From: Fibrella aestuarina BUZ 2
GTDB lineage: Bacteria; Bacteroidota; Bacteroidia; Cytophagales; Spirosomataceae
Reading direction: 5' to 3'
Assembly: GCF_000331105.1 (NCBI RefSeq)
Contig: NC_020054.1
Span: 541,001 to 605,000 of the forward strand
DNA length: 64,000 nucleotides
In this document: positions 847 through 63,935 of the stretch, piece after piece
Layout of the letters: each line of letters opens with the position of its first letter
How positions within the stretch are numbered: position 1 is the first letter of the stretch
Notes under the pieces: model-generated
What the model saw: only the letters and a program-made list of their open reading frames with translations
Told to the model about the DNA's origin: nothing
Databases searched by the model: none
Made by a program: the position numbers and the translations under genes

Positions 847-1785
847 TCAGGCCTGTTCCAGGTACGTTCGGAGAGCGTGGGTACGTTGTGTTTGATCGGC
901 GATGGCCGTTTCGTGCTGCTTAGTAACCGCATCCAGCGCCTGACCGAGTTGCGCCTGTAGCTGCTGGGCGTTGGTTTGTGCTTTCTCGATGCGCCGTTGG
1001 ACCGAAAAGTCGGTGAACACATTGTCGAAGAAGATATCCACGAACCGCGTCAGTCCATCGTCAAACGTCCACTCGCCGTGCAGCTGCTGATGTACATCGG
1101 CCAGTTCTGACCGGAACCGGTTTACACCGTACGCCACCCGCTGAGACTGATCGCGGACGTCGTCTAGCTTGCCGTACTTCATCGCCGACAGCAATGACGA
1201 ACTGGTGAACATGTCCCAGTTACCCAGCCTGTGCGCATCCCCGATCAATCGGATGAGTGCCTCCACTTCATGAGCGGCCTGCCGACCCGCCTGCCGCGCT
1301 TCGGTCAGTTCGGTTACCTGCTGTTCAGCTGTGGTAAGCGCATCAGCCAGCCGCTGATAGGCCGTATCCTGCTGTTCCTGAACGGCCTGCTTTTTGTCCT
1401 GCATCAGCTGCGTGTACGCCGATTCAACATCCGCGTAGGTCGCTAACCGCGTCTGTAGCGCCGCTAGCTGCTGCGTTAGGGCCTCAACCTCAGCGTTGAT
1501 CGCATCGTAGTCGAGGCGGGCGCGCTGGGCTTCAGCCTGTTCTTTGGTCAGTTGCTCGTCGTGGCGGTTAAGCAGGTTATAATAGATCGAGGCCCAGCTT
1601 AGTCGTTCCAGCCGGTCGACGTCGGCTTGTTCATGGCTCCACCGTTCGTATAGAGCGGCCTGCTGGGTACGTTGTTTCTCGATCGTCTTGGTGAGCGTGG
1701 CGAGTTGTTGCGCTAACGCGATGCGCTCACCCCGGCGGCGGATGAGCGTAAGGAGGTTTTCCTGTTGCGTGGATGTCCAGGTCAT
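847..1785 (-). CDS. Hypothetical coiled-coil protein, 312 aa
   Basis: I do not recognise the family. The protein is almost all charged and Gln/Ala/Leu-rich heptad-like sequence, for example TKTIEKQRTQQAALYERWSH near residue 35 and QLAALQTRLATYADVESAY near 107, so it should be largely alpha-helical coiled coil. A less repetitive stretch, around LIRLIGDAHRLGNWDMFTSS (about 175-195), may be a small folded core. There is no signal peptide and no membrane segment, so it is probably cytoplasmic. It is a single gene with its own downstream hairpin. The start at MTWTSTQQ is the first ATG in frame. Confidence 0.7.
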   Translation of the reverse strand: MTWTSTQQENLLTLIRRRGERIALAQQLATLTKTIEKQRTQQAALYERWSHEQADVDRLERLSWASIYYNLLNRHDEQLTKEQAEAQRARLDYDAINAEVEALTQQLAALQTRLATYADVESAYTQLMQDKKQAVQEQQDTAYQRLADALTTAEQQVTELTEARQAGRQAAHEVEALIRLIGDAHRLGNWDMFTSSSLLSAMKYGKLDDVRDQSQRVAYGVNRFRSELADVHQQLHGEWTFDDGLTRFVDIFFDNVFTDFSVQRRIEKAQTNAQQLQAQLGQALDAVTKQHETAIADQTQRTHALRTYLEQA

Positions 1786-1917
1786 AGAAATAGGTCAGTC
1801 TGTAAGCGCAAAGCAAAGGAGGCACCGCGTTTGTAACCAGCCAATCTGGACAAGTGGCGTTGGGAGCGGCTCAACAATCCGCCGACCCTTACAGAAGGCG
1901 CATAGCTAATTCTGACG

Positions 1918-1925
1918 TACTTTTG
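1918..1925 (+). promoter_or_regulatory. Possible Bacteroidota -7 promoter element upstream of lysS
   Basis: TACTTTTG fits the Bacteroidota -7 consensus TAnnTTTG and lies 51 bp before the lysS ATG. I found no convincing TTG -33 element at the usual spacing, so this is only a weak prediction. Confidence 0.3.
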
Positions 1926-1976
1926 CACCTCTATTTTTACGGCCGTAGCCATTTCCCGTAAAAACCTCAGTCTCCG

Positions 1977-3764
1977 ATGCTTAGTGAACAAGAAGTAAAT
2001 AGACGACAGAAACGCGAAGAACTCATGCGGCTGGGCATCGACCCCTACCCCGCCGAACTCTTCGACGTTACCCACACCATCGCTCAACTCCGCGACGCCT
2101 TCGCCGACAAGGCCGGCCAGGACACGCAGGGCGGGTATGAAGCCCACCTCGATCTGGCGGGCGACCCTGCCTGGGGTCAGGTACGTCTGGCGGGCCGCCT
2201 GATGGGCTTCCGCATCATGGGTAGCGCGTCGTTTGCCGAAATGCAGGATAGCAGCGGCCGGATGCAGCTGTATTTCCGCCGCGACGACCTGTGCCCCGGC
2301 GACGATAAGACGCTCTACAACACCGTTTTCAAAAAACTGCTCGATATCGGCGATATCGTCGGGGTGGAAGGCAACATCTTCACCACGCAGACCGGCGAAC
2401 TGTCGCTCTACGTACGGTCGTTCAAGGTACTGACCAAATCGCTGCGGCCGCTGCCGGTGGTGAAAGAGGTGGTGAACGAACAGACCGGCGAAAAAGAAAC
2501 CTACGACGCTTTTACCGATCCCGAACTGCGCTACCGGCAGCGGTACGTTGACCTGATCGTGAATCCGCAGGTACGTGAGGTGTTCATCAAGCGGAGCAAG
2601 CTGGTCAACTCAATCCGTCACTACCTGACGGGTAAGGGCTACCTGGAAGTGGAAACACCTATTTTGCAGCCAATCCACGGGGGTGCCACGGCGCGGCCGT
2701 TTAAAACGCACCACAACACGCTCGACATGACGCTCTACCTGCGTATTGCCAACGAGCTGTACCTGAAGCGGTTGATCGTGGGCGGGTATGACGGCGTGTT
2801 CGAATTTGCCAAAGACTTCCGCAACGAAGGCATGGACCGGACGCACAACCCCGAGTTCACGCAGGTTGAGTTCTACGTCGCCTACAAAGACTATAACTGG
2901 ATGATGGACACCATCGAAGAAATGGTGGAAAAAGTAGCGCTCGACGTGGCCGGTACCACCAAAGTGACCGTCGGCGACAATGTGATCGACTTCAAACGCC
3001 CCTGGAAACGCCTTACCATGTTTGAGGCTATTCAGGAATACACCGGCGTCGACGTGTCGAACATGGGCGAAGACGAACTGCGGCAAACGGCCGAAAGCCG
3101 GGGCATCAAAACGGATTCGTCGATGGGCAAATCGAAGCTGATCGACGAACTGTTTGGCGAAGCCTGCGAGCCGAACCTGATTCAGCCGACGTTCATCACC
3201 GATTACCCCGTCGAGATGTCGCCGCTGACTAAAAAGCACCGTAGCAAGCCGGGTTTAGTGGAGCGTTTCGAAGCGATCTGCAACGGCAAAGAGATTGCCA
3301 ACGCTTATTCGGAGCTAAACGACCCGCTCGACCAACGGGCACGTTTCGAAGAGCAGCTTGAGCTGGCCAAACGCGGCGACGACGAAGCGATGGCGATGGA
3401 CGAAGACTTTTTGCGGGCGCTCGAATACGGCATGCCACCCACGGCCGGCGTAGGCCTCGGCATCGACCGGCTCACGATGATCATGACTAATCAGCCGAGC
3501 ATTCAGGAAGTGCTGTTCTTTCCGCAGATGCGCCCGGAGAAAAAGGAAGAAGGCGCCACCGAAGCCGACTTTGTGGCAGCGGGCGTACCCGAAGCGTGGG
3601 TGCCGGCGCTACAAAAACTGGGTTACCTGACCATCGCGCAGCTACACGCCGCCAGTCCCAACAAACTTTTCAACGACCTCGGCGGCGTGCGGAAGAAACT
3701 AAAAATGACCGACGTACCCATGCCAAGCATCGCCGACGTACACGGCTGGACGGGGCATAAATGA
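1977..3764 (+). CDS. lysS: Lysyl-tRNA synthetase, class II
   Basis: Charges tRNA-Lys with lysine in an ATP-dependent reaction. An N-terminal OB-fold anticodon-binding domain (about residues 60-170, with [18 protein letters not shown]) is followed by the class II catalytic core: motif 1 near 219-240 ([19 protein letters not shown]), motif 2 near 281 ([19 protein letters not shown]) and motif 3 near 490 ([13 protein letters not shown]). At 595 aa it is longer than the typical 500-aa bacterial enzyme. The extra length is a helical SAP-like insertion near 366-392 and a C-terminal tail of about 77 residues after the motif 3 region. I recall such extensions in other Bacteroidota enzymes. It appears to be monocistronic and ends before a long inverted repeat. 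Confidence 0.97.
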
Positions 3765-6655: not shown

Positions 6656-7228
6656 ATGAAAAAGGGAATGATTTTGGTTGCTATGCTGCTTGCCGGTGTA
6701 GTTGCCAACGCACAGACGACGCCAACGACAACACCTACGAGCCCTACCACCCCTAATACGCCAGTAGGCACCACGGGTACAGGCCAAACAGGTACGTATA
6801 GCAACGGGCAGCCTACCCAGTCGACGGGTACGTACAACAACCCGACGAACACAGGCACCACTACAGGTACGTATCAGACTCAACCCGGTACCACAACTGG
6901 TAACGGCGTAGGCACGTACCCGCAGAATCAGAGCACAAACACGGGTAATTACAATACCCAGCAGTCGACCAGCCAAAACCCGGTAGGTGGCAGCAGCACA
7001 GGTACGTCGCAGAGCGGCACAACGGGTTCTTATTCGACCCAATCAGGCCGGACCATGCAGAGTGGCAACACGAACACTACCGGCACCCGCTCAACAGATC
7101 GCACAACGATGGACCAGATGGATTCGAACAGCAACAACGGCTCAACGAATCGGTCGAATACACGGACGCGTAATTCGCGCACGAACAGCACCACGACAAC
7201 GACTCGTCCGAACTCGACGACGTACTAG
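6656..7228 (+). CDS. Secreted Thr/Gly/Asn/Ser-rich low-complexity protein
   Basis: A 190-aa protein with a clear Sec signal peptide (MKKGMILVAMLLAGVVANAQ). The rest is almost entirely T, G, N, S, Q and P, with a recurring GTY unit (about six copies) and an Arg-rich tail, TRNSRTNSTTTTTRPNSTTY. No folded domain is visible. It could be an exported matrix-like or disordered surface protein. Several GTY/GTS units are encoded by the GGTACGT word that is over-represented across the window. The gene stands alone and is followed by a good terminator. Confidence 0.75.
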   Translation: MKKGMILVAMLLAGVVANAQTTPTTTPTSPTTPNTPVGTTGTGQTGTYSNGQPTQSTGTYNNPTNTGTTTGTYQTQPGTTTGNGVGTYPQNQSTNTGNYNTQQSTSQNPVGGSSTGTSQSGTTGSYSTQSGRTMQSGNTNTTGTRSTDRTTMDQMDSNSNNGSTNRSNTRTRNSRTNSTTTTTRPNSTTY

Positions 7229-7377: not shown

Positions 7378-8658
7378 TCAGGCTGTCGGGTGAATGGGGA
7401 AACGTACCCGAATCAGGGTTCCAGCCCCCAGGCGGGTTTCGACGTCCAGACTCGCGTTGAGCAGTTCGCAAAGCCGTTTTACGATATACAGACCAATTCC
7501 TTCGCCTCCCGACCGGATACCCTCCGTAACCACTTCATCGGCCGAAGGGGCGGGGGTTGGCTGTGTTTTTTCCGGCGTATTTTCGTTGAAAAGCGCAACC
7601 GAATCGACCGTAGGCCGCAGTTGGTCAGACAGCCACATGGTAGCTCCCGACGACAACCCGGGCCCTGTATCCTGCACACTCAGCATCCAGCGAAACTGGT
7701 TTTCGTTTGACCAAGATACCGATACCTGCCCTTCCTGCGTGTTCTTAAGCGCGTTGGTCAGCAGATTCTGGGCAATACGATACACTTTTGTGGCATCACC
7801 CATAACAGGCAAGTGTGCCGGGCCGTCGCCTTTCAGAAACAGATTGCGTTCCTGCGCCAGCGGCTGAGCCGACTCAATCAAGCCGCGCATGGTTTCGGCC
7901 ACGTCGAACGGTTTGACGTTGATATTTTCCCGGCCTGCTTCCAGCCGGGCCAGATCCATCAGTTCGGTCAGCATAGAGGCCAACCTCGGGAAGTTGCGGT
8001 TCAGAATCTGCAACATCTCCGAGCGCTCCTGTTCCGTATTGTCAGGCATATCGAGCAACGAAGCCGCCCCCTGAATCACGCTGAAGCTACTACGAAGATC
8101 GTGTGAGGCAATGCGCAACATGGCACTGCGTTTCCGACCCAGCTCATTTACGTTATCGAGGGCCCGTTGCAGATTCAGCGCCCGTTCGGTAGCCTCCGCT
8201 TTCTGAAACTCATCGTATTGGGCAATGCTGCCCCCAATGGCTTCGTGGATTAGCGCGCCAATGCGCTGATGCGCGATGAGCAATACGTCGTGGTCGATAT
8301 TGGGCTGATGGTGCCAGAACGTACCCAACTCGCTAAGCAGGCTTTGGTGCAGGTGCGCCAGTTCGTTAAGCAATTCGTGCAGCGCATAGCCTTTGTGCCA
8401 TCGGTGCAGCCCATGCTCGCGGGCAACCTGGTAGGGTAACACGCTATCCTGTTCGTTTCGTAAGCGCTTATCAAGCACCGTCAGCATGACCGGAATTTGA
8501 TCCGTAAACTCTTCACGAGTAAGGCCCGCAACTACTTTCAGATTGGAATCGCTGGCGCAGGTCGTATGCCAGTTCGTTAGGATTGCTTCGCGGCGGCTGA
8601 ACAGAAACGTAGCCAACTGACTTAACTGAGCGTCTGTTGAAATCGGTCTTTGTATCAT
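7378..8658 (-). CDS. Sensor histidine kinase with an RsbRD-like N-terminal domain
   Basis: A 426-aa cytoplasmic kinase from the ATG at 8658 (an upstream ATG at 8715 would add 19 residues). The N-terminal helical half (about 10-150) resembles the RsbRD_N domain of some sensor kinases. It is followed by HisKA with RIASHDLRSSFSVIQG (phospho-acceptor His near 185) and HATPase_c with N box NLLTNALKNTQEG (near 299), G1 QDTGPGLSSG and G2 GEGIGLYIVKRL. There are no membrane segments, so it should sense an intracellular cue. It is divergent from the single-domain response regulator starting at 8939, its likely partner. Confidence 0.88.
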   Translation of the reverse strand: MIQRPISTDAQLSQLATFLFSRREAILTNWHTTCASDSNLKVVAGLTREEFTDQIPVMLTVLDKRLRNEQDSVLPYQVAREHGLHRWHKGYALHELLNELAHLHQSLLSELGTFWHHQPNIDHDVLLIAHQRIGALIHEAIGGSIAQYDEFQKAEATERALNLQRALDNVNELGRKRSAMLRIASHDLRSSFSVIQGAASLLDMPDNTEQERSEMLQILNRNFPRLASMLTELMDLARLEAGRENINVKPFDVAETMRGLIESAQPLAQERNLFLKGDGPAHLPVMGDATKVYRIAQNLLTNALKNTQEGQVSVSWSNENQFRWMLSVQDTGPGLSSGATMWLSDQLRPTVDSVALFNENTPEKTQPTPAPSADEVVTEGIRSGGEGIGLYIVKRLCELLNASLDVETRLGAGTLIRVRFPIHPTA

Positions 8659-10176: not shown

Positions 10177-11086
10177 ACGCCAGTTTCTGAAGCACGTTGG
10201 TGTGGCAGCGGTTGTTGGCACGGCCATGCCCTCGGCGTTACTGGCGGCCCCCAAACCCACCGTGTTGACTATTTTGCACACCAATGATCAGCACAGCCGC
10301 CTCGATCCGTTTCCGATGGATGGCAGCCGCAACGCCGGCCGGGGTGGTATTGCCCGCCGGATGACCCTGATTCAGCAGATCAGGGCCGAACAGGCGGCGG
10401 GGTCGTCGCGCCATGTGCTGCTCTTCGACGCAGGCGACATCTTTCAGGGAACGCCCTATTTCAACCTCTACAAAGGCGAGCCGGAGATCCTGGCAATGAA
10501 CCGACTCGGATACGACGCGGGCACCATCGGCAACCACGATTTCGACGCGGGTATCGACAACATGCGGGATCAGTTTGCCAAAGCCACCTTCCCGATCCTG
10601 ATCGCCAATTACGATTTCAGGAATACGGTGATGGCCGAACGTACCCAGCCCTACAAGATCTTCAAAAGAGACGGGGTGCGTGTGGGCGTATTTGGGCTGG
10701 GCATTCAACCCAAAGGCCTCATCCCGGAAACGCTGTACAAAGAAACGGTTTACCTCGACCCCATCGAGACCAGCACCGACGTAGCCCGGAAACTACGCAC
10801 CGACGAGCACTGCGATTACGTAATCTGCCTGTCGCACCTGGGCTATAAATACAACGACTCGACCGTTTCGGATCAGGTGCTCGCGGCTAAAAGCCGGGAT
10901 ATCGATCTCATCATCGGCGGGCACACCCACACCTTCCTGGATGCGCCCGTAACGGTACCCAACGCCAACGGCAAACCCATTCTGGTGAATCAGGTTGGGT
11001 TTGGGGGTATCAATCTCGGCCGAATCGACCTGACGTTTGAGCGTGGCAAAGCCCCCTCGGCCAACGGCAAAGCCGTTTCCGTGTAA
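10154..11086 (+). CDS. 5'-nucleotidase metallophosphatase domain protein with a Tat signal
   Basis: A 310-aa metallophosphoesterase. The N-terminus STRRQFLKHVGVAAVVG is a twin-arginine signal, implying export in folded, metal-loaded form. Metal ligands are visible in TILHTNDQHSRL, FDAGDIFQGTPYF, GTIGNHDFDAG and IIGGHTHTFLDA, which match UshA/5'-nucleotidase N-domains. It overlaps the preceding C-domain lipoprotein gene by 23 bp, so the two are translationally linked. Substrate specificity cannot be read. Confidence 0.92.
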   Translation: MDALRSTRRQFLKHVGVAAVVGTAMPSALLAAPKPTVLTILHTNDQHSRLDPFPMDGSRNAGRGGIARRMTLIQQIRAEQAAGSSRHVLLFDAGDIFQGTPYFNLYKGEPEILAMNRLGYDAGTIGNHDFDAGIDNMRDQFAKATFPILIANYDFRNTVMAERTQPYKIFKRDGVRVGVFGLGIQPKGLIPETLYKETVYLDPIETSTDVARKLRTDEHCDYVICLSHLGYKYNDSTVSDQVLAAKSRDIDLIIGGHTHTFLDAPVTVPNANGKPILVNQVGFGGINLGRIDLTFERGKAPSANGKAVSV

Positions 11087-20951: not shown

Positions 20952-21098
20952 ATGCAACACGACACCGACAACGACGCTTTTCCGACCACGCTGATTGCGC
21001 TACCTTTAATCACCCGCAACGTACCTGACTGCGTATTTAAGACCTGTTGCAAAAAGTACAAGAAGGGGAAACGCTGCAAAAGCTGCCCTAAAAAATAG
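20952..21098 (+). CDS. Small Cys/Lys-rich conserved protein, 48 aa
   Basis: A short gene (MQHDTDNDAFPTTLIALPLI to the C-terminal tail CCKKYKKGKRCKSCPKK) lying 49 bp upstream of hemW. The tail has four cysteines in a CC-x8-C-x2-C pattern surrounded by lysines, suggesting a metal- or nucleic-acid-binding tail. I recall similar short CKKYKKGKxCKxCPK proteins in Bacteroidota, but have not verified it. An ORF on the opposite strand is less convincing. Confidence 0.65.
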   Translation: MQHDTDNDAFPTTLIALPLITRNVPDCVFKTCCKKYKKGKRCKSCPKK

Positions 21099-52348: not shown

Positions 52349-55300
52349 ATGGCTACTTCATCTTTTGCTGCGATTATGCAGCAGATCGACGAATATAAAC
52401 GTCGGTACTTTCAGAATAAGCTGATCAAAGGCTCCCTGCTTTTCGTCGGCTTACTGCTGGCAACGTACCTGCTTATTAACACCCTGGAATACTACGGGCG
52501 CTTCAGTACGCCCGTTCGCGCTACGCTGTTTTTTGGCTTCGTAGGCCTTTTTCTGGCTGGTGCTTACGGCTATATCATTCAGCCGCTGTTGGGCTTGTAT
52601 GGGCTACGTAAACCAATCTCCGACGAAGTAGCGGCCCAACAGATCGGGCAGTTTTTTCCCGAGATTGGCGACAAGCTGCTGAACACACTTCAGCTACGGC
52701 AGTTGACCAATGATCAAAGCGATCTGCTGCGGGCCAGTATCGAGCAGCGATCGAGTCAGCTGTTGATTACCCGGTTTTCGTCGGCTATTCAGCTCAACAA
52801 GAATCAGCGCTTCTTAAAGTTTGCGTTGGCCCCCGCTCTGATCATCGGTGGCATCTTATTGGTGTACCCAGCCTTCTTTACAAAGAGTTCGACGCGGTTG
52901 GTTCAGTATAACCGCGAGTTTGTTGAAGAGGCACCTTTTCAGTTTGTGCTCGACTCAAAACGGCTTCAGGCATTTCGGAACGAAGATTTTACATTAAAGC
53001 TTCATTTGGAAGGCGACGCTATCCCGCAGACGGTTTATCTGCTCTTAAATGACACGCGCTTCAAGCTCGACAACGTTGGTAAGAACACATATGCCTACAC
53101 GTTCGACAACGTACAGCGTGATCTTGACTTCAAACTGGAAGCCGCTGGATTCAGCTCACCCAGCTACGAACTCGAACTGCTTGACCGGCCGTCGGTCTTG
53201 TCGTTTGACGTTTTCTTAACGTACCCAGCCTATCTGGGCAAACCCGCTGAACAACTGTCGAACGTTGGCAATCTGTTGGTGCCGGAAGGCACGTCGATCC
53301 GTTGGAAGTTCCTGGCCGATCATGCCGACTCGTTGGCGGTACGTTTCGTACCAGGTAACACGGTGCGCGCTCAGGAAACGGAGACTAATGCGTTCGGGCT
53401 TACGCACCGTGCCACTCAGTCAGGTACGTATTCGCTGAACCTGATGAACAGCCACGCCCGTAATGGGGGAGACCTGACCTATGCGATTCAAGTTATCCCG
53501 GATCGGTATCCACAGATCAGTTTGCAGAAAACGCAGGATTCCGTTGCCTACAATTTTATTGGGCTTTACGGCCTTATTACCGACGACTATGGCTTCTCGA
53601 ATTTGAAATTAGTCGCTACGGTTACGCGGGCAGGTTCACCCGCGAAGCAGACGTTTACACGGCCTATCTCGATCAATACAGGCACCACGTCGCAGAATTA
53701 CGTTTACAACTGGGCATTAGATAGCCTGAAGCTTCAGCCTAGCGACAAGATTGATTACTACGTGCAGGTGGCCGATAATGACGGCGTACATGGTCCTAAA
53801 ACGACCCGTTCGGCCGTTATGACCTTCGCCGTGCCTTCAGTCGATCAGTTGCAAAAACAGGTTGATCAGTCTGCCGAAAAAACAGAGCAACAGATGCAGG
53901 AGGCGCTCAACACAGCTCAACAGATCAAGAAAGAATTGAACGAGTTGGAAGAGCGGCTTCGCACGAAGAAATCGTCTGATTTTCAGGACAAAAAGCAGCT
54001 ACAGGATATTCTTCAGAAACGTGAGGAGTTGATGCAAGAGATTGAAAAGCTACAGCAGCAATTCCAGAAAACGCAGGATACGCAGCAACGCATGAATCCA
54101 CAGCAACAGGAAAGCCTGAAGCAGAAGATGGAACAGTTGCAGAAGTTGCTGGAAAACATGGTTGACCCTGAATCGAAAAAGCTATACGAAGAGCTTAAGC
54201 AGATGATGGAGAAAAAGCAGGACGAGCGCGCTTCGGAGTTAATGAACAAATTGAATCGGAAGGAACGCAACCTCGAAAAAGAGCTTGACCGTGCCCTCAA
54301 GATGTTCAAGCAGATGCAACAGAATCAGAAGTTTGAGAACGCGATCAAACAACTTGAACAGCAGGCCGATAAGCAGGATAAACTGGCTGAGCAAAACGCG
54401 AAGGAGGAAGCAAAGAAAGATCCGGCCGACTTGGAGAAGCAGAAGCAAGAGCAACAGAAGGCAGAGGAGGACTTTAAAAAGCTGATGGAACAGCTCGAGA
54501 AAATGCAGCAGGAAGCCGAGAAAGAGAAACTTCAGGCTCCCGATAAGCAGGAAAATGAGCAGTCAGAAATCCAGAAGCAGATGGAGCAATCGAAGCAGGA
54601 GCTGGATAAAAAGGATCAAAAGAACGCGTCAAAATCACAGCAGAAAACGTCGAAATCGATGCGCAATATGGCCAAGTCGATGTCGGAGTCGATGGAAGGC
54701 ATGGACATGAAGAGCATGTCGGAGAACCTGGATGACCTGCGCAATTTGCTCGACAACCTGATCTCACTTTCCTTTTCGCAAGAGCGGCTGATGCGTGATT
54801 TCCGGAGCATGAGCCTGCAAGATCCGCGGGTGCTCAAGCTGTCGCAGGAACAGGTCCGTTTGCAGGATAACGCCAAAGTCATTGAAGACAGCTTGAACTC
54901 ATTGGCTAAACGCGAGCCGCAAATTCAGTCTTTTGTGACGCGCGAACTCACCAATATGCGCTATTACATGGATGAGAGTTCACGTTTCCTGAAGGAGCGT
55001 AAGTTGAGTTATGCCTCTGCCCGTCAGCAATCGGCTATGACGTCGATTAACAACTTGTCCTTGATGTTGAATGATGCCTTCAAGCAAATGCAGGATCAGA
55101 TGAACGCTATGTCAATGCCGGGCTCTGGTAAAAGCAAGGGGAAAAGCAAAGGTAGTCAGCCAATGCCGGGCATCGGTGAGCAGCAACAACAGCTGAATGA
55201 ACGCATGCAGCAGCTATCACAAAGTGGCAAATCGGGGCGTGCTTTGTCTGAGGAATTATCTCAATTGGCCGCTGAGCAAAGTGCATTGCGTGATATGTTG

Positions 55301-55720: not shown

Positions 55721-57598
55721 ATGTTCAATACGTACGATGTCATCGTAGTAGGAGCAGGGCATGCCGGTTGTGAAGCTGCTCATGCCGCGGGAACCATGGG
55801 TTCTTCGGTGCTTCTGATTACCATGAACATGCAAACCATCGCACAGATGTCGTGTAACCCCGCTATGGGTGGAGTTGCCAAAGGACAAATCGTGCGAGAG
55901 ATTGATGCCCTCGGCGGACAGTCAGGTATTATCAGCGACAAAACGATGATTCAGTTTCGCATGCTGAATCGGTCAAAAGGGCCTGCCATGTGGAGCCCGC
56001 GTTGTCAAAGCGACCGGATGCTGTTTGCGCAGGAATGGCGCGATACGCTCGAACGAAACCCGAACGTCGATTTTTGGCAGGATACGGTCAACGAAATTCT
56101 CGTTAAAGATGGCCGCGTGACTGGCGTGAAAACGGCAATGGGTGTCGAGATTATGGCCAAAACAGTTGTGCTCACCAACGGTACATTTCTGAACGGACGC
56201 ATGTTCATCGGCGAAAAAACGTTTGGTGGCGGCCGTACAGGCGAACGGTCAGCAACTGGTTTAACGGAGCAGTTAGTTCAACTAGGCTTCGAATCAGGCC
56301 GGATGAAAACCGGAACGCCCCCTCGAATTGACGGCCGAAGCCTCGATTATAGCCGTATGGAAGAACAGCCGGGCGACGAAATTCCCGGCAAATTTTCTTA
56401 CACGGATACTGTACCACTGACCAAACAACGGTCGTGTTGGATCACCTATACCGAACAAGGTGTACATGACGTACTGAAAGAAGGCTTCGAACAATCGCCC
56501 ATGTTTACCGGGCGAATCAAGGGTTTAGGGCCGCGTTATTGCCCATCAATCGAAGACAAAATCAATCGCTTTGCAGACAAAGATCGCCATCAGATCTTCG
56601 TGGAACCCGAAGGCTGGAACACGGTCGAGGTTTATGTAAACGGGTTTTCGACCTCATTGCCGGAGGTGATACAGTACAGGGCGTTAACGAAAATCGCCGG
56701 ATTTGAGAATGCAAAAATGTTCCGACCGGGCTATGCAGTCGAGTATGATTTCTTCCCACCGACTCAACTCAAGCCCACACTCGAAACACATATCGTTGCG
56801 AATCTCTTCTTTGCCGGGCAGATTAACGGAACAACGGGCTACGAAGAAGCGGCTTGCCAAGGCTTGATGGCTGGCATCAATGCACATCAAAATGCGCATG
56901 AAGAAAAGCCCTTCACAGTAGGCCGGTCAGAAGGGTACATCGGGGTGTTGATCGACGATCTGATTACAAAAGGGACCGAAGAGCCATACCGCATGTTCAC
57001 ATCGCGCGCTGAATTCCGCACCCTGCTGCGGCAAGACAATGCCGACCTGCGACTGACGGAAAAAGGTTACAGTATCGGCTTAGCCAGTGAAGACCGGGTG
57101 GAACGTACCCGGGCTAAACAGGCAGCAGTTGAGTCGCTAAGACAAGAACTGCGCGACATCAAACTTCGGCCCGACGAAGTCAACGGCTGGCTGGAAAGTA
57201 AAAACTCGTCGGCTCTTCGCGAAAAGGCACCGCTTTACAATCTGGTTAAGCGCCCAGAACTCGACACCGACGACATCGCGGAATTGATTGAGATGGCCTA
57301 CGAAAAAACAGATGGAGCCGCAGCGGTCTTGCTTTCACGCGACGTTTTGGAACAAACGGTCATCGAAGTGAAGTACGACGATTATCTGGCCAGAGAACGT
57401 GAGAACGCGGCCAAGCTCAGTCGCTGGGAAAACCTGGACATACCAGGTACGTTCGACTTTGACAAAGTGAAAGCCTTGTCTTTTGAAGGGCGTGAAAAAC
57501 TAAAAAAGCTTCGACCCAACACCATCGGTCAGGCTACCCGGATTAGTGGCGTCAGCCCATCCGACATTTCCATTTTGTTAGTTTACATGGGTCGTTGA
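55721..57598 (+). CDS. mnmG: tRNA uridine-5-carboxymethylaminomethyl(34) synthesis enzyme MnmG (GidA)
   Basis: A 625-aa FAD enzyme that, with MnmE, modifies the wobble uridine of several tRNAs. Motifs are the FAD-binding VIVVGAGHAGCEAAHAAGTM at the N-terminus, SCNPAMGGVAKGQIVREIDA, GQINGTTGYEEAACQGLMAG and GRSEGYIGVLIDDLITKGT. C-terminal helices end TRISGVSPSDISILLVYMG. Length and order are normal. The stop codon overlaps the region where the methyltransferase begins. gidA genes often lie beside oriC, and a candidate origin lies 2.6 kb downstream. Confidence 0.97.
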   Translation: MFNTYDVIVVGAGHAGCEAAHAAGTMGSSVLLITMNMQTIAQMSCNPAMGGVAKGQIVREIDALGGQSGIISDKTMIQFRMLNRSKGPAMWSPRCQSDRMLFAQEWRDTLERNPNVDFWQDTVNEILVKDGRVTGVKTAMGVEIMAKTVVLTNGTFLNGRMFIGEKTFGGGRTGERSATGLTEQLVQLGFESGRMKTGTPPRIDGRSLDYSRMEEQPGDEIPGKFSYTDTVPLTKQRSCWITYTEQGVHDVLKEGFEQSPMFTGRIKGLGPRYCPSIEDKINRFADKDRHQIFVEPEGWNTVEVYVNGFSTSLPEVIQYRALTKIAGFENAKMFRPGYAVEYDFFPPTQLKPTLETHIVANLFFAGQINGTTGYEEAACQGLMAGINAHQNAHEEKPFTVGRSEGYIGVLIDDLITKGTEEPYRMFTSRAEFRTLLRQDNADLRLTEKGYSIGLASEDRVERTRAKQAAVESLRQELRDIKLRPDEVNGWLESKNSSALREKAPLYNLVKRPELDTDDIAELIEMAYEKTDGAAAVLLSRDVLEQTVIEVKYDDYLARERENAAKLSRWENLDIPGTFDFDKVKALSFEGREKLKKLRPNTIGQATRISGVSPSDISILLVYMGR

Positions 57599-57600: not shown

Positions 57601-58482
57601 GTGGAAGAACTCACCACGTGCCCCGTCTGTGGAGGCGGGGCATTTACACCATACATTACTTGCCAGGATCATCTGGTCAGCCAGCAACCCTTCCAGATTC
57701 AGCGCTGCGAGCAGTGCCAGTTGCTCTTCACTAACCCGCGTCCTACACCCGACACTATCGGCTCGTATTACAAATCGGACGCTTACATTTCACACGACGA
57801 TACCCGCCAAGGGCTGATGGACACCGTGTACCGAATGGTGCGTTCCTACACCTTGCAGGAGAAAGAAAAGCTGATTCGTCGGCTTGCCGGTAGGGTAGGG
57901 GCTATGCTTGATTATGGCTGCGGCACGGGTGCCTTCCTAGCACAATGCCAGGAAAAAGGCTGGACAATCACCGGTTACGAACCCGACCCGGATGCTCGCC
58001 GTCTCGCTGAGCAACGTACCCAAACGACCGTCTTAAAAGACCTTAATGACATACAGGCCGTTGCAAGCCTCGACGTTATTACGTTGTGGCACGTGCTGGA
58101 ACACGTGCCTGATCTTCACAGTACACTTGCCCGTTTGGCATCATCGCTACGGTCAGGAGGTGCTTTGGTGATCGCAGTGCCTAATCCAGAATCGGTTGAT
58201 GCGAAGCAATACGAGACAAATTGGGCTGCCTACGACGTACCCAGACACCTGTACCATTTCACGCCAAAAGTCCTGAAAGCGTTGCTCGGGAAGCACGGTC
58301 TTACACTGGAACAACAATTACCCATGCGTTTCGATGCCTACTACATAGCCATGTTGAGCACGCAGCATCGAGACGGGAAAACCAATTATCTTGAAAGCCT
58401 GCAACAAGGCTGGCGATCCAATGCGTCGGCTAGTCGCACCGGCAATTACTCAAGCCTGACTTATGTATTCAGAAAACCCTAA
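57601..58482 (+). CDS. Class I SAM-dependent methyltransferase with zinc-ribbon N-terminus
   Basis: A 293-aa methyltransferase. The GTG at 57601 (VEELTTCPVCGGG) starts 3 bp after the mnmG stop; a TTG at 57595 is also possible. The N-terminal CPVCG and CEQCQ pairs form a probable zinc ribbon. The SAM-binding motif is MLDYGCGTGAFLAQC, with WHVLEHVPDLHSTLARLASS further on. This is the pattern of sugar C- or small-molecule methyltransferases (Methyltransf_11/23); the substrate is unknown. It overlaps the next gene by 20 bp. Confidence 0.88.
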   Translation: MEELTTCPVCGGGAFTPYITCQDHLVSQQPFQIQRCEQCQLLFTNPRPTPDTIGSYYKSDAYISHDDTRQGLMDTVYRMVRSYTLQEKEKLIRRLAGRVGAMLDYGCGTGAFLAQCQEKGWTITGYEPDPDARRLAEQRTQTTVLKDLNDIQAVASLDVITLWHVLEHVPDLHSTLARLASSLRSGGALVIAVPNPESVDAKQYETNWAAYDVPRHLYHFTPKVLKALLGKHGLTLEQQLPMRFDAYYIAMLSTQHRDGKTNYLESLQQGWRSNASASRTGNYSSLTYVFRKP

Positions 58483-60121
58483 TCTCAATCATCCTGCTGC
58501 TCAATATCGAACGCCCTCTTTGTGGGGCGTTTTCTTGTTACTCTTCATCGCCGTGATGGCCAGCCGCTGTGCGCAGGTAGCCCAACCACCAGGGGGTAAG
58601 AAAGACACACTGGCCCCTAAACTGATTGCCAGCATTCCAAAAATGCGAGCTACCAATGTAAAGCCGAAGCAGGTCGAGTTGTATTTTGATGAATACATCA
58701 ATGCCGAAAATTTTAGCCAGAAAACAATCATCACCCCTGGGAGCGGCATTACGTTCGACAGCCGGATTAAGCCTACCGGCGTGGTACTGATCTTTAATGA
58801 ACCACTGAAAGACAGTACTACCTACACCATCAGCTTCACGGATGGGATCAAGGATGCGAGCGAACGCAATCCAGCGACTAATCTGAAGTTGGTCTTCAGC
58901 ACCGGGCCTCAACTAGATTCGCTCAACATTAGTGGACGCGTGACAAACATCCTCAGCGGCACCACAGTGGAAGATGCCTTGGTGGGTCTGTACGCACCCA
59001 ATGATACGCTCGATGCCCAACGCACAAAGCCCATTTACTACAGCAAAACTGACACATCAGGGTTGTTTTCCATCGAAAATATCAAAGCGGGGGAGTACGA
59101 TATTCTGGCGTTCACCGATCGAAATTCCAACTTCGTTTTCAATCCGGACAAAGAGGAGATCGGCTTCTATAGCCAGCGAATCAGCCTGACGAAAAACGTG
59201 AATGACGTCGCACTGACGCTTTTTCCACAGAACACATCGCCAGTGCGCATTAGTCGAAGTGAGTCCCGATCGGACGCCTATACCATCAATCTAAACAAAG
59301 GTATCGCCAGCTATTCTGCTCGTTTTCGCAATTCAGCTGATAGTCTACCGTCGTTCCTGCAAAGCCCAACCCAGGTCAAATTTTTCCGTACCAAGCAGAC
59401 CACTGATACGCTCTCTATTCAACTTGCGGTGGAGGATTCGCTGGGGCAACGCTATTCGTTACGGCACACCATCAATTTTCGGCAAAAAAGCAAACGCGAA
59501 AAACCGGAGGATTTCGTCGTAAAAGTGTCACCGCCAAATAGCGATGCGGTTGAGCCCAACTTTGAGTGGACCGTCTCGTTCAGCAAGCCGGTAAAAACGA
59601 TTCGGAATGAACAAGTGCAGTTTTCGATCGACAGTCTTAGCACCGCCAATTTGGCTAGCTATACATCGGTACTTGGCCTGAGCGATACCGAACTCAAGAC
59701 GCAGGTAACGACCAAAGCCAAAAAATTCATTCGAATCAAATGGCAAAAAGACGCCTTCGAAAGTGTGCTAGGCGATACGGTCGCTGTGAATACAATAACG
59801 TACCCAATTGTTAACCCAGAGAATTTCGGTATCCTTCGCGGACGCGTTACCACCAAAGAGCCCAACTTCTTTGTAGAACTGGTGGATGAGCGACAAACGG
59901 TAATACGTACACTACGAAACACGGCCACTTATGAGTTCAAGAACCTAAAACCGGCCAAGTACCGGCTTCGGCTCATTATCGACCGAAACAACAATGGGAA
60001 ATGGGATACCGGGCGGTACGATCAGCGTCTACAGCCCGAACCCATCTACTACTATCCCGGCGGCCTGATCAACGTGAAGCAAAACTTTGAATTGGAGGAG
60101 ATCAACCTGAGCGATCAATAG
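58463..60121 (+). CDS. Ig-like (Big_5) domain lipoprotein
   Basis: A 552-aa exported lipoprotein with hydrophobic N-terminus LWGVFLLLFIAVMASRC (Cys after the helix). The sequence continues QPPGGKKDTLAPKLIASIPK and RATNVKPKQVELYFDEYINA, the start typical of Bacteroidota Big_5 lipoproteins. Several beta domains follow, including TYTISFTDGIKDASERNP and VEDALVGLYAPNDTLD. The C-terminal YRLRLIIDRNNNGKWDTGRY looks like a carboxypeptidase-regulatory-like domain. A surface or periplasmic structural role is likely. It overlaps the methyltransferase by 20 bp, so the mnmG, methyltransferase and lipoprotein genes form one operon. Confidence 0.85.
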   Translation: MYSENPNLNHPAAQYRTPSLWGVFLLLFIAVMASRCAQVAQPPGGKKDTLAPKLIASIPKMRATNVKPKQVELYFDEYINAENFSQKTIITPGSGITFDSRIKPTGVVLIFNEPLKDSTTYTISFTDGIKDASERNPATNLKLVFSTGPQLDSLNISGRVTNILSGTTVEDALVGLYAPNDTLDAQRTKPIYYSKTDTSGLFSIENIKAGEYDILAFTDRNSNFVFNPDKEEIGFYSQRISLTKNVNDVALTLFPQNTSPVRISRSESRSDAYTINLNKGIASYSARFRNSADSLPSFLQSPTQVKFFRTKQTTDTLSIQLAVEDSLGQRYSLRHTINFRQKSKREKPEDFVVKVSPPNSDAVEPNFEWTVSFSKPVKTIRNEQVQFSIDSLSTANLASYTSVLGLSDTELKTQVTTKAKKFIRIKWQKDAFESVLGDTVAVNTITYPIVNPENFGILRGRVTTKEPNFFVELVDERQTVIRTLRNTATYEFKNLKPAKYRLRLIIDRNNNGKWDTGRYDQRLQPEPIYYYPGGLINVKQNFELEEINLSDQ

Positions 60122-60578: not shown

Positions 60579-62405
60579 ATGAAAAATAGGGTGTGTGGAA
60601 AGGTGTTGTTGCTTGTCTTGCTGCTGGCTGGCCCCTGGCTGCACGCACAAACCGAACAAGGGTTGGCCGATGAGTACTTTCGAAATGGGGAGTATGAGAA
60701 GGCCGCCGCCGAATACGGAAAGCATATTCAGAAAAACGAAGAACAGGGCGGTCCCTCGTGGCCAACGGTGGTCAAGTACATCACCAGCCTGGACCGGGCC
60801 AAGAAACGCGACGAGTCAGACCGGCAATTGAAAAAATGGTTGAAGGCTACGGGTAACCTCAAAACCTATGCGTTGGTGCTTACGGGTAGTCAGGCGCAGG
60901 AAAAGGGCGATTCCGTAGCGGCCAACAAAAACTTTTCAACGGCTTTTGAAGCGGTTAAGACCAACCCATTGCAAATTACCCGGCTTGGCGAACTGATGAC
61001 CGACGTTGGCGCGACCAACTGGGCCATCCAATCGTTTGAGCAGGCGCAAAAGGTCGTGGGTGACCCACTGTTGCGGGCAGAAGAGTTAGCGGCGCTCTAT
61101 CGCGCTAAAAACGACATAAAACGGTGGGTAGAGACCCTGCTGCCGCTCGCCCAACGTCCCGACAAGCGCGAGGCCGTTCAGATCGCTTATCAGGGCGTGA
61201 TCAACACCCGTGATGAGCCTATCCTTGAGCAGGTGCTTTATGACCGGGTGCAAAAGGAGCCGGAGTCGATCCCGACAAACGACATGCTGACCTGGTACTT
61301 TCTACAAAAGCAAAAGTTCAGCCGGGCACTTATGCAGGAGAAAGCCGTCGACAAACGGTTGAAGCTTTCCGGCGCCAAGGTATTTGAGTTGACCAATCTG
61401 GCGTTGACCAACCGGGAATACAAAACAGCTATCGACGGCTGCGAGTACATCATCGCCAACTACAGCAACGGCACATTCTACCCCTACGCCCGCCGGATGA
61501 TCATCAACGCCCGGGAAGAGCAGGTGAAGGCAACGTACCCGATCGATAAAAGTGAGATTCGGAAGTTGATCGGCGATTACCAGCGGATGTTGAATGAGGT
61601 GGGCATGACGCCCAAAACGCTGGAGGCGCTCCGTAGCTCAGCCAATTTGTACGCTAACTACCTCGACGAGAAGGACTCAGCCGTGGCTATTCTGGATAAA
61701 GCCATCCTGATGGGGAAAACTGATCCGCTATTTGTGGATAAGTGCAAACTTGACAAGGGCGACATTTATCTCCTGAAGAATGAGCCCTGGGAATCAACAC
61801 TGCTGTATTCGCAAGTGGAAAAGTCGCAGAAGGATGACTTACTGGGTTACGAAGCGAAACTGCGTAACGCCAAACTGCACTACTACAAAGGCGATTTCAC
61901 GCTGGCTAAATCGGTGCTGGACGTGCTAAAACTGGCCACATCCCGCGAAATCGCCAACGATGCCGAGCAACTGAGCATGCTGATTCTTGACAATACCGGG
62001 CTCGATAGCACTGAGAACGCTATGCGCGATTATGCTGCCATTGACCTGCTCTTGTTCCAGAACAAGCTCGACGAAGCCAATACGCAGATCAGCGCCATGC
62101 TAAAGAAGTACGACAAGCATACGCTGGCTGATGAATTGCTCTGGTTGCAGTCAAAGATTCTGGTGAAAGAAAACCGGCTCGACGATGCTATTGCCAATCT
62201 GCAACAGATCGTCAAATTGTACCCGCTCGATATTCTGGGTGACGATGCGCTGTACGAGGCCGCCAGACTGACCGACGAACGCAAGAAAGACGCGGTAGAG
62301 TCGCTGAAACTGTATCAACAGTTCCTGACAACGTACCCAGGCAGTATCTACGCGGCTGATGCCCGTAAACGCATCCGTCAGTTACGCGGCGATGCGGTAA
62401 ACTGA
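60579..62405 (+). CDS. Tetratricopeptide-repeat exported protein
   Basis: A 608-aa protein. The ATG at 60579 begins MKNRVCGKVLLLVLLLAGPW, a signal peptide, whereas an earlier ATG at 60504 falls in the DnaA-box region. TPR helices run through the length, for example EQGLADEYFRNGEYEKAAAE, FELTNLALTNREYKTAIDGC, DGLLGYEAK-type repeats, LDDAIANLQQIVKLYP and VESLKLYQQFLTTYPGSIYA. It is probably a periplasmic TPR scaffold (outer-membrane-protein assembly BamD-like or similar, by repeats only). An exact DnaA box at 61733-61741 lies inside the gene. A terminator follows. Confidence 0.85.
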   Translation: MKNRVCGKVLLLVLLLAGPWLHAQTEQGLADEYFRNGEYEKAAAEYGKHIQKNEEQGGPSWPTVVKYITSLDRAKKRDESDRQLKKWLKATGNLKTYALVLTGSQAQEKGDSVAANKNFSTAFEAVKTNPLQITRLGELMTDVGATNWAIQSFEQAQKVVGDPLLRAEELAALYRAKNDIKRWVETLLPLAQRPDKREAVQIAYQGVINTRDEPILEQVLYDRVQKEPESIPTNDMLTWYFLQKQKFSRALMQEKAVDKRLKLSGAKVFELTNLALTNREYKTAIDGCEYIIANYSNGTFYPYARRMIINAREEQVKATYPIDKSEIRKLIGDYQRMLNEVGMTPKTLEALRSSANLYANYLDEKDSAVAILDKAILMGKTDPLFVDKCKLDKGDIYLLKNEPWESTLLYSQVEKSQKDDLLGYEAKLRNAKLHYYKGDFTLAKSVLDVLKLATSREIANDAEQLSMLILDNTGLDSTENAMRDYAAIDLLLFQNKLDEANTQISAMLKKYDKHTLADELLWLQSKILVKENRLDDAIANLQQIVKLYPLDILGDDALYEAARLTDERKKDAVESLKLYQQFLTTYPGSIYAADARKRIRQLRGDAVN

Positions 62406-62424: not shown

Positions 62425-62467
62425 AAAGCCCCTGATTAAAGCTGTGTAGGCTTCAATTAGGGGCTTT
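62425..62467. terminator. Terminator between TPR and thrC genes
   Basis: The 13-bp stem AAAGCCCCTgATT (62425-62437) with AATTAGGGGCTTT (62455-62467) has one mismatch and a 17-nt loop. It lies between convergent genes. Confidence 0.8.
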
Positions 62468-62482
62468 CGTATGAACGAACGT

Positions 62483-63787
62483 TTATGCCGTTTGGAGAAG
62501 TGATTCTTTAAACGCCTCGAACGTACCTGGAATGGCAATCGCTTGTTTGGTGCGATTGGCCAGTATAGCAAGCCGCTCAGGTACGTCGACAGCTTGTCCC
62601 AAAATCTCGTCAACCGCCGGGCTAAATTTGGCTGGATGAGCAGTTGCCAACGCAATTCCACAGTTATCCACAGCAAAATGTTGATAACTTTCAAGGCCCA
62701 ATAAACCAACAGCCGTATGGGGACAAGCAACGTAGTTATACACATCGCGAAGCCTTTTTATCTCATCAATAGTCTGATCGTCAGTGAAATAGTAGCCTTT
62801 TATGCGATCGGTAATTGAAGCATAATCATCCCCCAGCAACCGTTTTAGCCGGCTGAAATTGCTTGGGTTACCTACATCCATCGCGTTGGAGAGCGTAGCC
62901 AGTGAAGCCATTGGTTCGTACGTACCTGACGACAGATAATCAGGCACAACTTTGTTCAAATTGGTCGCTGCCACAAAGGCCTCAACGGGTAGTCCCATTC
63001 GCCAGCCGAGAACCCCGGCGCTAAGGTTACCGAAGTTGCCCGAAGGCGTGGAGAAAACAACCGGCTTGTGGTTAGGTGCCAGTTGAGCCAAGGCGCGGAA
63101 ATAATAGAAGCTTTGCGGAATAAGCCGGAAGATGTTAATTGAATTAGCCGACGACAAGGCAAAAGTCTGGTTCAGTTCTTGATCCAGAAATGCCGTCTTG
63201 ACCAACGCCTGACAATCGTCGAACGAACCATCGACCTCAAAGGCCTGCACATTGCCGCCCAACGTCGTCAGCTGCTTTTCCTGCAACAAGCTGACCCGTC
63301 CTTTCGGATAGAGAATGGAAACCCGCACGCCAGGTACGTTGTGGAAACCCATCGCGACAGCTCCGCCCGTATCACCAGAGGTCGCCACCAGGATATGAAC
63401 CTCCTTATCATACGACGCCGAAAAGATCGACATCAAGCCAGCCATAAAACGAGCGCCCACATCTTTGAAAGCCAGCGAAGGACCGTGAAAGAGTTCAAGC
63501 ACGTATTTCCGGCCCGCTTCCAGCTCAACGAGGGGCGTGTCGAACGGGAAGGCCTGCTCGACTAATTGGGCTACTTGTGCGTCGGTCAGATCGCCGGTTA
63601 GCCAGAGCTTGGTCAGGTCGTAGGCAATGTCAGCAAACGATTTACCGGGCAGCGAATTCAGATAGCCAGCCGGTAACGCCGGAATTGCCGAGGGCATGTA
63701 TAATCCACGATCCTGGGGCATACTGTTAAACAATGCCTCCTGAACCGAAACAACATTTGTTGCGTCATTAGTACTGTAGAAAGTCAT
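62483..63787 (-). CDS. thrC: Threonine synthase
   Basis: A 434-aa PLP enzyme converting O-phosphohomoserine to threonine. From the ATG at 63787 it reads MTFYSTNDATNVVSVQEALF, the typical start; an earlier in-frame ATG at 63925 is unlikely. The PLP lysine lies in HGPSLAFKDVGARFMAG (near 106). Other landmarks are VATSGDTGGAVAMGFHNVPG, SSANSINIFRLIPQSFYYF and FSTPSGNFGNLSAGVLG. An exact DnaA box (62664-62672) lies within the gene. It is convergent with the TPR gene. Confidence 0.96.
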   Translation of the reverse strand: MTFYSTNDATNVVSVQEALFNSMPQDRGLYMPSAIPALPAGYLNSLPGKSFADIAYDLTKLWLTGDLTDAQVAQLVEQAFPFDTPLVELEAGRKYVLELFHGPSLAFKDVGARFMAGLMSIFSASYDKEVHILVATSGDTGGAVAMGFHNVPGVRVSILYPKGRVSLLQEKQLTTLGGNVQAFEVDGSFDDCQALVKTAFLDQELNQTFALSSANSINIFRLIPQSFYYFRALAQLAPNHKPVVFSTPSGNFGNLSAGVLGWRMGLPVEAFVAATNLNKVVPDYLSSGTYEPMASLATLSNAMDVGNPSNFSRLKRLLGDDYASITDRIKGYYFTDDQTIDEIKRLRDVYNYVACPHTAVGLLGLESYQHFAVDNCGIALATAHPAKFSPAVDEILGQAVDVPERLAILANRTKQAIAIPGTFEAFKESLLQTA

Positions 63788-63935
63788 AGCGTAATCGGGC
63801 AAAAGAGCACGCAAGTTACGTGCAAACAGTCGGTTACAGCATACCATGACTTCGTAAGCAACGTACCCGGGTAAGGGCTGGCTCTGGAAAGCGCCAACTT
63901 GTCGACTTACCTTTGTAGCAGACAATCATACCTTC

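Follow-up and report, generated by a model that had tools for sequence, protein, structure and literature searches.

Word content of the window and the genome

The window analysed here is the whole 64-kb stretch C2:541001–605000 of the source genome, Fibrella aestuarina BUZ 2 (G000; chromosome of 6,775,444 bp and plasmid of 161,819 bp), and its genes and intergenic regions are interspersed with copies of a seven-letter word, ACGTACC. Exact matching resulted in 89 copies (50 in the forward and 39 in the reverse orientation) between positions 861 and 63867 (Table 1), compared with a mean of 7.25 and a maximum of 15 in 100 dinucleotide shuffles, an excess of about 12-fold. This is in good agreement with the preliminary description of this DNA, in which about 85–90 copies and a roughly tenfold excess had been given. 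The dinucleotide following the word was TG in 32 and CA in 30 copies, and any pyrimidine–purine (YR) step in 76/89. Among the 21 one-mismatch neighbours of the word, 19 were present in 6–17 copies in the window and two in one copy.

Across the genome (6.94 Mb) there were 8,209 copies of ACGTACC (4,060 forward, 4,149 reverse; 1,183 per Mb), whereas the reversed word occurred 686 times. In an order-3 Markov test of 1.08 Mb of G000 the 7-mer was found at 5.1 times, ACGTACCCA at 24 times and ACGTACCTG at 20 times the expected number. The contribution of codon usage was assessed in 861 genes predicted by a simple purpose-made gene caller (0.93 Mb coding), using three codon-preserving null models with 30 shuffles each: synonymous shuffling within genes, global shuffling, and shuffling in which boundary bases were also preserved. 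The 1,154 coding copies of ACGTACC compare with 254, 232 and 298 under these nulls, and the 896 coding copies of ACGTACCYR with 91, 77 and 111, giving an excess of 3.9–5.0-fold for the 7-mer and 8.0–11.6-fold for ACGTACCYR. All six combinations of frame and strand were enriched, from 2.2- to 14-fold, as was intergenic DNA; coding sequence contained 88% of the copies (1,154/1,309), at 1.24 per kb compared with 1.01 per kb in intergenic DNA. The earlier observations that copies fall in different reading frames and that codon bias alone is insufficient to account for them were thus borne out. The preliminary description had also allowed that the word might be confined to this window, or that its excess might vanish after correction for codon and dinucleotide composition. 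Neither is the case, because the excess is genome-wide and robust to both the Markov and the codon nulls, by which a codon or dinucleotide artefact is ruled out.

Form of the word

Flanking bases and mismatches were analysed in 1.88 Mb of G000 (three plasmid stretches and 89 chromosomal ones, among them the window), and the background was estimated from DNA in which the sites had been masked. Enrichment by the next dinucleotide was 49-fold for CA, 43-fold for TG, 19-fold for TA, 10-fold for CG, 9-fold for CC and 7-fold for GG, with the other ten at 3.3-fold or less; with a preceding A, enrichment rose to 54-fold from about 20-fold. On the chromosome the word in its fuller form is AACGTACC-YR. 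The consensus proposed initially, ACGTACC followed by TG or CA, therefore stands in that these two steps are the strongest, and is refined in that TA and CG count too. Since the order of preference is almost unchanged by reverse complement (TG, CA > TA > CG, CC, GG), we infer that the step is recognised as a deformable step of double-stranded DNA.

Near-matches to the word were close to background. The one-mismatch neighbours occurred at 0.56–1.84 of expectation, the highest being ACGTACT (1.84-fold, and 3.0-fold before YR); the other last-position variants, ACGTACA and ACGTACG, were at 1.28- and 0.66-fold, and first-position variants at 0.82–1.16-fold. For ACGTACC-YR, 1,215 one-mismatch sites were counted against 1,073 expected, compared with 1,741 perfect sites. 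The word is asymmetric, and the double site ACGTACC-NN-GGTACGT, found 5 times in 1.88 Mb, is too rare for a palindromic double site to be the main form. No AT-rich tracts of the kind associated with uptake signal sequences (USS) were seen flanking the word.

Placement on the chromosome

Over most of the sampled chromosome the density of the word was Poisson-like: 79 of the 89 chromosomal stretches had a GC content of at least 0.53 and a mean of 1.24 copies per kb, with a standard deviation of 0.24 (Poisson expectation 0.25). The ten stretches with GC below 0.53 ranged from 0.10 to 1.15 per kb, the lowest being L058 (0.10), L056 (0.15) and L039 (0.20), and these ten were taken as putatively, in part, acquired DNA. 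In intergenic gaps of 20–600 bp the word was more frequent between convergent genes (34 copies in 15.2 kb, 2.24 per kb) than between divergent genes (31 in 42.3 kb, 0.73 per kb). Inspection by eye indicated only a few hairpin-like inverted pairs among the 34 convergent-gap copies, and the placement of copies did not support inverted-pair terminators as the main form of the word. Terminator-like hairpins containing the word between convergent genes were noted, likewise by eye, in L045 (about 4004–4025), L018 (about 13792–13819) and L021 (about 12761). Local clusters exceeded random placement (18 cluster starts compared with 4.2 expected), and one cluster of five copies, close to the origin in L012, was not special, as comparable clusters occurred elsewhere.

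With an origin at about 0.60 Mb and a terminus near 4.0 Mb, 1,046 copies were on the leading and 1,104 on the lagging strand, confirming the near-balanced, non-polar orientation suggested previously. FtsK-orienting polar sequences (KOPS) point towards the terminus; ACGTACC resembles them in being short and over-represented, but is balanced (543/526 on the 0.6–4.0 Mb arm). The strand balance was more variable among stretches than expected by chance (p = 4e-5). Between 4.15 and 6.15 Mb it was heterogeneous among 20-kb stretches (p about 1e-6), without replichore polarity. A forward bias at 4.2–6.1 Mb in the first sample (199:89, 13 stretches), which would have indicated a replication-polar word, was not repeated in 13 more stretches (pooled 310:243 over 26).

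The chromosomal origin itself probably lies within the window, at about 60,200–60,510. The intergenic region 60121–60600 contains six DnaA-like boxes in about 300 bp (one exact TTATCCACA and five with one mismatch) and the GC-skew minimum. This candidate oriC is two genes away from mnmG/gidA (55808–57598), with dnaA about 600 kb off at C2:400, and no copy of ACGTACC was found within it (60121–60600).

Table 1. Exact copies of ACGTACC in the 64-kb window, with orientation.
Feature	Position	Strand	Remark
ACGTACC copy	861..867	-	
ACGTACC copy	880..886	-	
ACGTACC copy	1666..1672	-	
ACGTACC copy	2180..2186	-	
ACGTACC copy	2542..2548	-	
ACGTACC copy	2570..2576	-	
ACGTACC copy	3712..3718	+	
ACGTACC copy	6791..6797	-	local cluster of 5 in 6791-7007
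ACGTACC copy	6827..6833	-	
ACGTACC copy	6866..6872	-	
ACGTACC copy	6914..6920	+	
ACGTACC copy	7001..7007	-	
ACGTACC copy	7402..7408	+	
ACGTACC copy	8319..8325	+	
ACGTACC copy	10639..10645	+	
ACGTACC copy	11773..11779	+	
ACGTACC copy	13025..13031	-	
ACGTACC copy	13728..13734	+	
ACGTACC copy	14387..14393	+	
ACGTACC copy	14544..14550	+	
ACGTACC copy	15671..15677	+	
ACGTACC copy	16322..16328	+	
ACGTACC copy	16509..16515	-	
ACGTACC copy	18085..18091	+	
ACGTACC copy	18691..18697	+	
ACGTACC copy	18718..18724	+	
ACGTACC copy	19073..19079	-	
ACGTACC copy	21019..21025	+	
ACGTACC copy	21277..21283	+	
ACGTACC copy	21358..21364	+	
ACGTACC copy	21677..21683	+	
ACGTACC copy	21824..21830	-	
ACGTACC copy	22031..22037	+	
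ACGTACC copy	22098..22104	+	
ACGTACC copy	22564..22570	-	
ACGTACC copy	23683..23689	+	
ACGTACC copy	23699..23705	+	
ACGTACC copy	25228..25234	-	
ACGTACC copy	25744..25750	+	
ACGTACC copy	25971..25977	-	
ACGTACC copy	26074..26080	-	
ACGTACC copy	26431..26437	+	
ACGTACC copy	26662..26668	+	
ACGTACC copy	27870..27876	-	
ACGTACC copy	28003..28009	-	
ACGTACC copy	29271..29277	-	
ACGTACC copy	30037..30043	+	
ACGTACC copy	30621..30627	-	
ACGTACC copy	31441..31447	+	
ACGTACC copy	31607..31613	-	
ACGTACC copy	31675..31681	+	
ACGTACC copy	32366..32372	-	
ACGTACC copy	32793..32799	+	
ACGTACC copy	33914..33920	-	
ACGTACC copy	34253..34259	-	
ACGTACC copy	35159..35165	-	
ACGTACC copy	35201..35207	+	
ACGTACC copy	35858..35864	-	
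ACGTACC copy	37202..37208	+	
ACGTACC copy	40695..40701	+	
ACGTACC copy	41524..41530	+	
ACGTACC copy	42014..42020	+	
ACGTACC copy	42878..42884	+	
ACGTACC copy	44107..44113	-	
ACGTACC copy	44645..44651	-	
ACGTACC copy	45533..45539	-	
ACGTACC copy	46434..46440	+	
ACGTACC copy	46461..46467	-	inverted to 46434
ACGTACC copy	46798..46804	+	
ACGTACC copy	47407..47413	+	
ACGTACC copy	47679..47685	-	
ACGTACC copy	50685..50691	-	
ACGTACC copy	51327..51333	+	
ACGTACC copy	52463..52469	+	
ACGTACC copy	53219..53225	+	
ACGTACC copy	53338..53344	-	
ACGTACC copy	53423..53429	-	
ACGTACC copy	57103..57109	+	
ACGTACC copy	57446..57452	-	
ACGTACC copy	58014..58020	+	
ACGTACC copy	58235..58241	+	
ACGTACC copy	59798..59804	+	
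ACGTACC copy	61533..61539	+	
ACGTACC copy	62331..62337	+	
ACGTACC copy	62521..62527	+	
ACGTACC copy	62580..62586	-	
ACGTACC copy	62920..62926	+	
ACGTACC copy	63333..63339	-	
ACGTACC copy	63861..63867	+	

Occurrence and conservation in related genomes

A survey of 222 genomes of the family included five from the Fibrella/Fibrivirga-type genus (G000 to G004). ACGTACCYR was counted 6,394 times in G000, 6,795 times in G003 and 5,622 times in G001, designated hereafter as word-rich, compared with 947 in G002 and 937 in G004, designated word-poor, and at most 764 in each of the other 217. The three word-rich species carry the 7-mer at 1.0–1.2 per kb, and in 38 genomes from other families of the order ACGTACC occurred at most 844 times in each. 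The check on related genomes called for by the preliminary description thus shows the word to be abundant in three species of this genus, the other two having what appear to be relics.

Conservation was tested with 21 to 22 genes of the window, aligned by codon, and expected values were taken from 7-mers in the same frame of each gene. Of 30 G000 copies, 14 were kept in G003 (3.8 expected) and 13 in G001 (3.5 expected), and none of 20,000 simulations reached either value. Between G001 and G003, 17/25 copies of the former were kept (7-mer baseline 0.193), and 33/45 in a longer DNA alignment, so that orthologous conservation between word-rich species is 3.5–3.7 times the baseline. A YR step was present in both genomes in 13/13 conserved pairs for G000–G001, 14/14 for G000–G003 and 30/33 for G001–G003, indicating that the step belongs to the site.

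In the word-poor genomes conservation was at or near the level of chance: G002 and G004 each retained 2/29 G000 copies (2.9 and 3.4 expected). The window genes contain three copies in G002 and two in G004, of which 4/5 coincide with G000 copies, although these numbers are small; no copy was common to G002 and G004 in the aligned window genes. The YR share of all ACGTACC copies was 0.51 in G002 and 0.53 in G004, compared with 0.78–0.84 in the word-rich genomes and a mean of 0.28 (standard deviation 0.042, maximum 0.39) across the 36 further genomes of the family in which 300 or more copies were counted. The copies in G002 and G004 are, from their sequence, apparent relics of a word once kept, and these relics favour loss: the word was probably present in the common ancestor of the genus, and its upkeep probably failed in the G002/G004 lineage. 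The trees disagree on the root, which bears on gain or loss of the word: in a protein tree of 9 genes that includes S. luteum the word-rich species group together with a support of 0.963, whereas in a DNA tree G000 branches outside the four other genomes.

Several candidates for related words or further word-rich genomes were rejected. An AAGTACC dialect in G027 is probably a local repeat, with 55/61 copies in one 20-kb stretch (L217, C1:1–20000), and no comparable word was found in G002 or G004 (100 kb from each). The g18 genomes G021 and G046 contain about 3,400–3,700 copies of ACGTACC, with a YR share of 0.21 and samples near order-3 expectation, and were taken to reflect composition; this reading is provisional, as the samples (80 and 34 kb) were poorer in the word (0.26 and 0.15 per kb) than the whole genomes (0.48 and 0.44).

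The word on plasmids

ACGTACC was the top 7-mer in a 60-kb sample of the G000 plasmid (62 copies) and on plasmids 1 (218 in 200 kb), 2 (33 in 50 kb) and 3 (91 in 81.6 kb) of Fibrella sp. ES10-3-2-2 (hereafter ES10), which the G000 plasmid partly matches at about 80%. Densities were 1.03–1.12 per kb on the G000 plasmid and ES10 plasmids 1 and 3, and 0.66 per kb on ES10 plasmid 2. On two Spirosoma plasmids, with 10 copies in 50 kb and 23 copies in 100 kb, it was not the top 7-mer. Strain ES10-3-2-2 had been sequenced with the PacBio RSII (PMC11354047). ES10 plasmids 1 and 3 have annotated conjugation genes, yet are typed as non-mobilizable in PLSDB.

The flank of the word is relaxed on the G000 plasmid and ES10 plasmids 1 and 3, where the YR share was 0.42–0.56. 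Relative to the codon null, which covered 150 kb of ES10 plasmid 1 and 50 kb of plasmid 3, copies without a YR step were in 3.0–4.3-fold excess on these three plasmids, compared with 1.5-fold in six core and 1.0-fold in six low-GC chromosomal stretches. The contrast was weaker by the Markov null (4.7–7.0-fold on these plasmids; 2.8, 1.5 and 0.8 on the chromosomes of G000, G001 and G003), by which the Spirosoma controls were not flat either (S. oryzicola non-YR 2.9-fold on 10 copies; S. linguale YR 5.0-fold on 13). ES10 plasmid 2 was chromosome-like, with a YR share of 0.82 and a non-YR excess of 2.5-fold. In the same plasmid (L267, 0–50 kb) the orientation of the word was skewed, with 27 forward and 6 reverse copies.

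Methyltransferase and competence genes

Methyltransferases were compared in five Pfam families (PF01555, PF07669, PF02384, PF00145 and PF02086), with pairs required to have at least 30% identity over at least 100 residues. Matches to PF07669 were identified in all five genomes of the genus. PF01555 and PF02384 were not found in G001, PF02086 was not found in G000, G001 or G002, and PF00145 was not found in G002. Low-scoring C5-methyltransferase-like matches were present in the three word-rich genomes, with stronger C5 matches in G004 and none in G002. The three of these proteins that were compared were not orthologous: those of G000 and G003 were 38.5% identical, and neither matched the one in G001 at the thresholds used. 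Long C5-methyltransferase-like proteins (527–729 amino acids), apparently with repeated internal segments, are encoded in three Fibrella-type genomes (L258, L259 and L260) and are not orthologues of each other. In the 1.08-Mb sample of G000, the palindromes GGGCCC, CCCGGG, CTGCAG and GCCGGC were 3- to 5-fold below order-3 expectation, as would result from restriction avoidance.

The ComM-like and ComF genes mentioned in the preliminary description are present in the window, as a YifB/ComM-like gene (38242–39783) and a gene for a ComF-like phosphoribosyltransferase (51201–51902). YifB and ComF genes are widespread among bacteria without known uptake words. ComEC was identified in 5/5 members of the genus, including the two word-poor ones. 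Elsewhere in the window, a ribonuclease gene (PF00545) is directly followed by a barstar gene (PF01337) at 45259–46187, forming a barnase–barstar-type toxin–immunity pair.

Discussion

We judge ACGTACC to be a maintained, lineage-specific recognition word at the level of DNA, upheld by natural selection or some comparable force. Few lineages are known to have highly iterated words. No description of ACGTACC, or of any iterated word in this lineage, was found in the open-licence literature among the matches listed, as the preliminary description had supposed. Its assignment to an uptake-like or HIP1-like class holds in part: the word is of that general class, being DNA-level, independent of codons and balanced in orientation, but the load on plasmids speaks against plain uptake, and the lack of a palindrome against plain HIP1. 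Because it does not share all the tested defining features of either the DNA uptake sequences (DUS) and USS or of HIP1, we file it under neither.

Our tentative preference, to which we would give somewhat less than an even chance, is that the word is the site of an intracellular sequence-specific protein that reads double-stranded DNA, with behaviour like that of HIP1; such a reader fits best given that plasmids are loaded with the word, that it occurs in every reading frame and that the step is symmetric. The protein would read the word inside the cell on every replicon, contacting ACGTACC base by base and reading the next step by its deformability (any YR, with TG and CA best). Sites would be kept if their loss were costly, or if a repair or conversion process restored them, and the bound protein may act in chromosome organisation, in repair or strand marking, or in modification. 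In the G002/G004 lineage the reader would have been lost and the sites left to decay.

The purpose of HIP1 is itself unsettled. In most cyanobacteria, group C1 excepted, HIP1 (GCGATCGC) occurs at 300–2700 per Mb (PMC4390886, Table 2). ACGTACC resembles it in a density of about 1 per kb, in being genome-wide and in being absent or replaced in some close relatives, but HIP1 is palindromic whereas the present word is an asymmetric 10-mer with a degenerate YR step. Deviations from HIP1 lean to the first and last positions; in the present word ACGTACT is raised at the last position and ACGTACG is not.

Four observations weigh against an intracellular reader. No reader protein was found in the methyltransferase comparison of the five Pfam families, and no orthologous methyltransferase group spans G000, G001 and G003 (38 of 41 loci compared, with most PF00145 and all PF02086 matches assessed from location and score alone). 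A single reader of one specificity does not account for the relaxed flank seen on some plasmids. Finally, although the spacing is dense, as originally described, it is irregular, with too many short gaps between copies (75 of 15–30 bp compared with 37 expected), and a function requiring one site per kb would not predict this clumping at short range.

A DNA uptake word, by which competent cells would prefer word-bearing DNA and recombination would spread the copies as for DUS and USS, is rather unlikely, though the strongest of the alternatives. The form fits, as a non-palindromic 9–10-mer at about 1 per kb in both orientations and restricted to one lineage; DUS and USS are likewise non-palindromic 9–12-mers of that density, on both strands, lineage-specific and common in permissive regions, with few near-matches beyond background. 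For the kingDUS, a longer word assessed by a different measure from ACGTACC-YR, matches rise by 21% when one mismatch is allowed (PMC3630211). The scarcity of the word in several low-GC stretches (L058, L056 and L039), its enrichment in convergent over divergent gaps, some hairpin-like intergenic pairs and ComEC throughout the genus are also consistent with uptake. Against this, the word-poor genomes have ComEC equally, the copies are mostly coding with no raised intergenic density, and inverted pairs seem few by eye. Uptake words are scarce on plasmid DNA. They are also scarce on islands (PMC7371117, PMC7811141). ACGTACC, low as it is in several low-GC stretches, does not share this trait, being present at 0.66–1.12 per kb on four plasmids from two strains, two of them with conjugation genes. 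It is also without a known receptor, in a phylum that, to our knowledge, is generally thought to lack type IV pili. The known or proposed receptors of uptake words elsewhere are type IV pilins (PMC12616744, PMC3868556).

Improbable in our view is a methylation-driven word, in which ACGTACC would be marked by a methyltransferase and the number of sites driven up step by step through methyl-dependent mismatch repair, similar to Elhai's proposal for HIP1. The density of 1.18 per kb is near the saturation of once per 1000 nucleotides in Elhai's model (PMC4390886), and the most raised one-mismatch variant, ACGTACT, is a C-to-T change. However, copies cluster over short distances instead of saturating, PF01555 and PF02384 are absent from G001 and PF02086 from both G000 and G001, and the PF07669 and PF00145 matches compared contain no group common to the word-rich species. 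This last point may also set the word apart from HIP1, which generally goes with a cognate DNA methyltransferase. Some HIP1-rich genomes are described as lacking the CGATCG enzyme (Elhai, PMC4390886).

We give little credence to a self-mark, with a host DNA-processing or defence machine sparing, or a maintenance machine favouring, DNA in which the word recurs about once per kb. Free replicons, conjugative plasmids among them, would then each need a full set of their own with any flank, chromosomally integrated DNA would be sheltered and could go without, and the chromosome would additionally be tuned to AACGTACC-YR. The Chi-like form, in which a nuclease or defence machine spares word-bearing DNA, is very doubtful. 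Consistent with it, the word is present on free replicons but nearly missing from some low-GC stretches of the chromosome, and the non-YR excess by the codon null is greater on three plasmids than on the chromosome; that contrast is smaller by the Markov null, with a non-YR excess on a Spirosoma control plasmid too. Chi sites include 7-mers in Gram-positive bacteria and are strand-biased relative to replication. ACGTACC shares the asymmetric 7-mer core and the high density, but has no replication-strand bias, is abundant in only three surveyed species and has a nearly symmetric flank preference, suggesting that it is read in double- rather than single-stranded DNA. Composition or codon usage alone has a negligible chance of producing the excess: codon usage does raise the chance level (about 17 per 64 kb by the synonymous null, compared with 7.25 by dinucleotide shuffles), but the codon-preserving nulls leave a 3.9–22-fold excess depending on word and null, one-mismatch neighbours stay near expectation and orthologous copies are conserved.

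If true, a self-mark would be a sequence-borne identity mark independent of methylation, and we know of no such mark in Bacteroidota. An intracellular reader would be supported by YR-specific retention of a protein on duplexes AACGTACCTG and AACGTACCAA and a scrambled control, and the difference in flank between plasmids and chromosome offers an uncommon means of telling recognition apart from selection. With a non-palindromic word, and word-rich species beside word-poor ones with apparent relics, the genus constitutes a natural experiment: a comparison of gene content across the split between rich and poor species could name the reader, and could test uptake, methylation, chromosome organisation and self-recognition.

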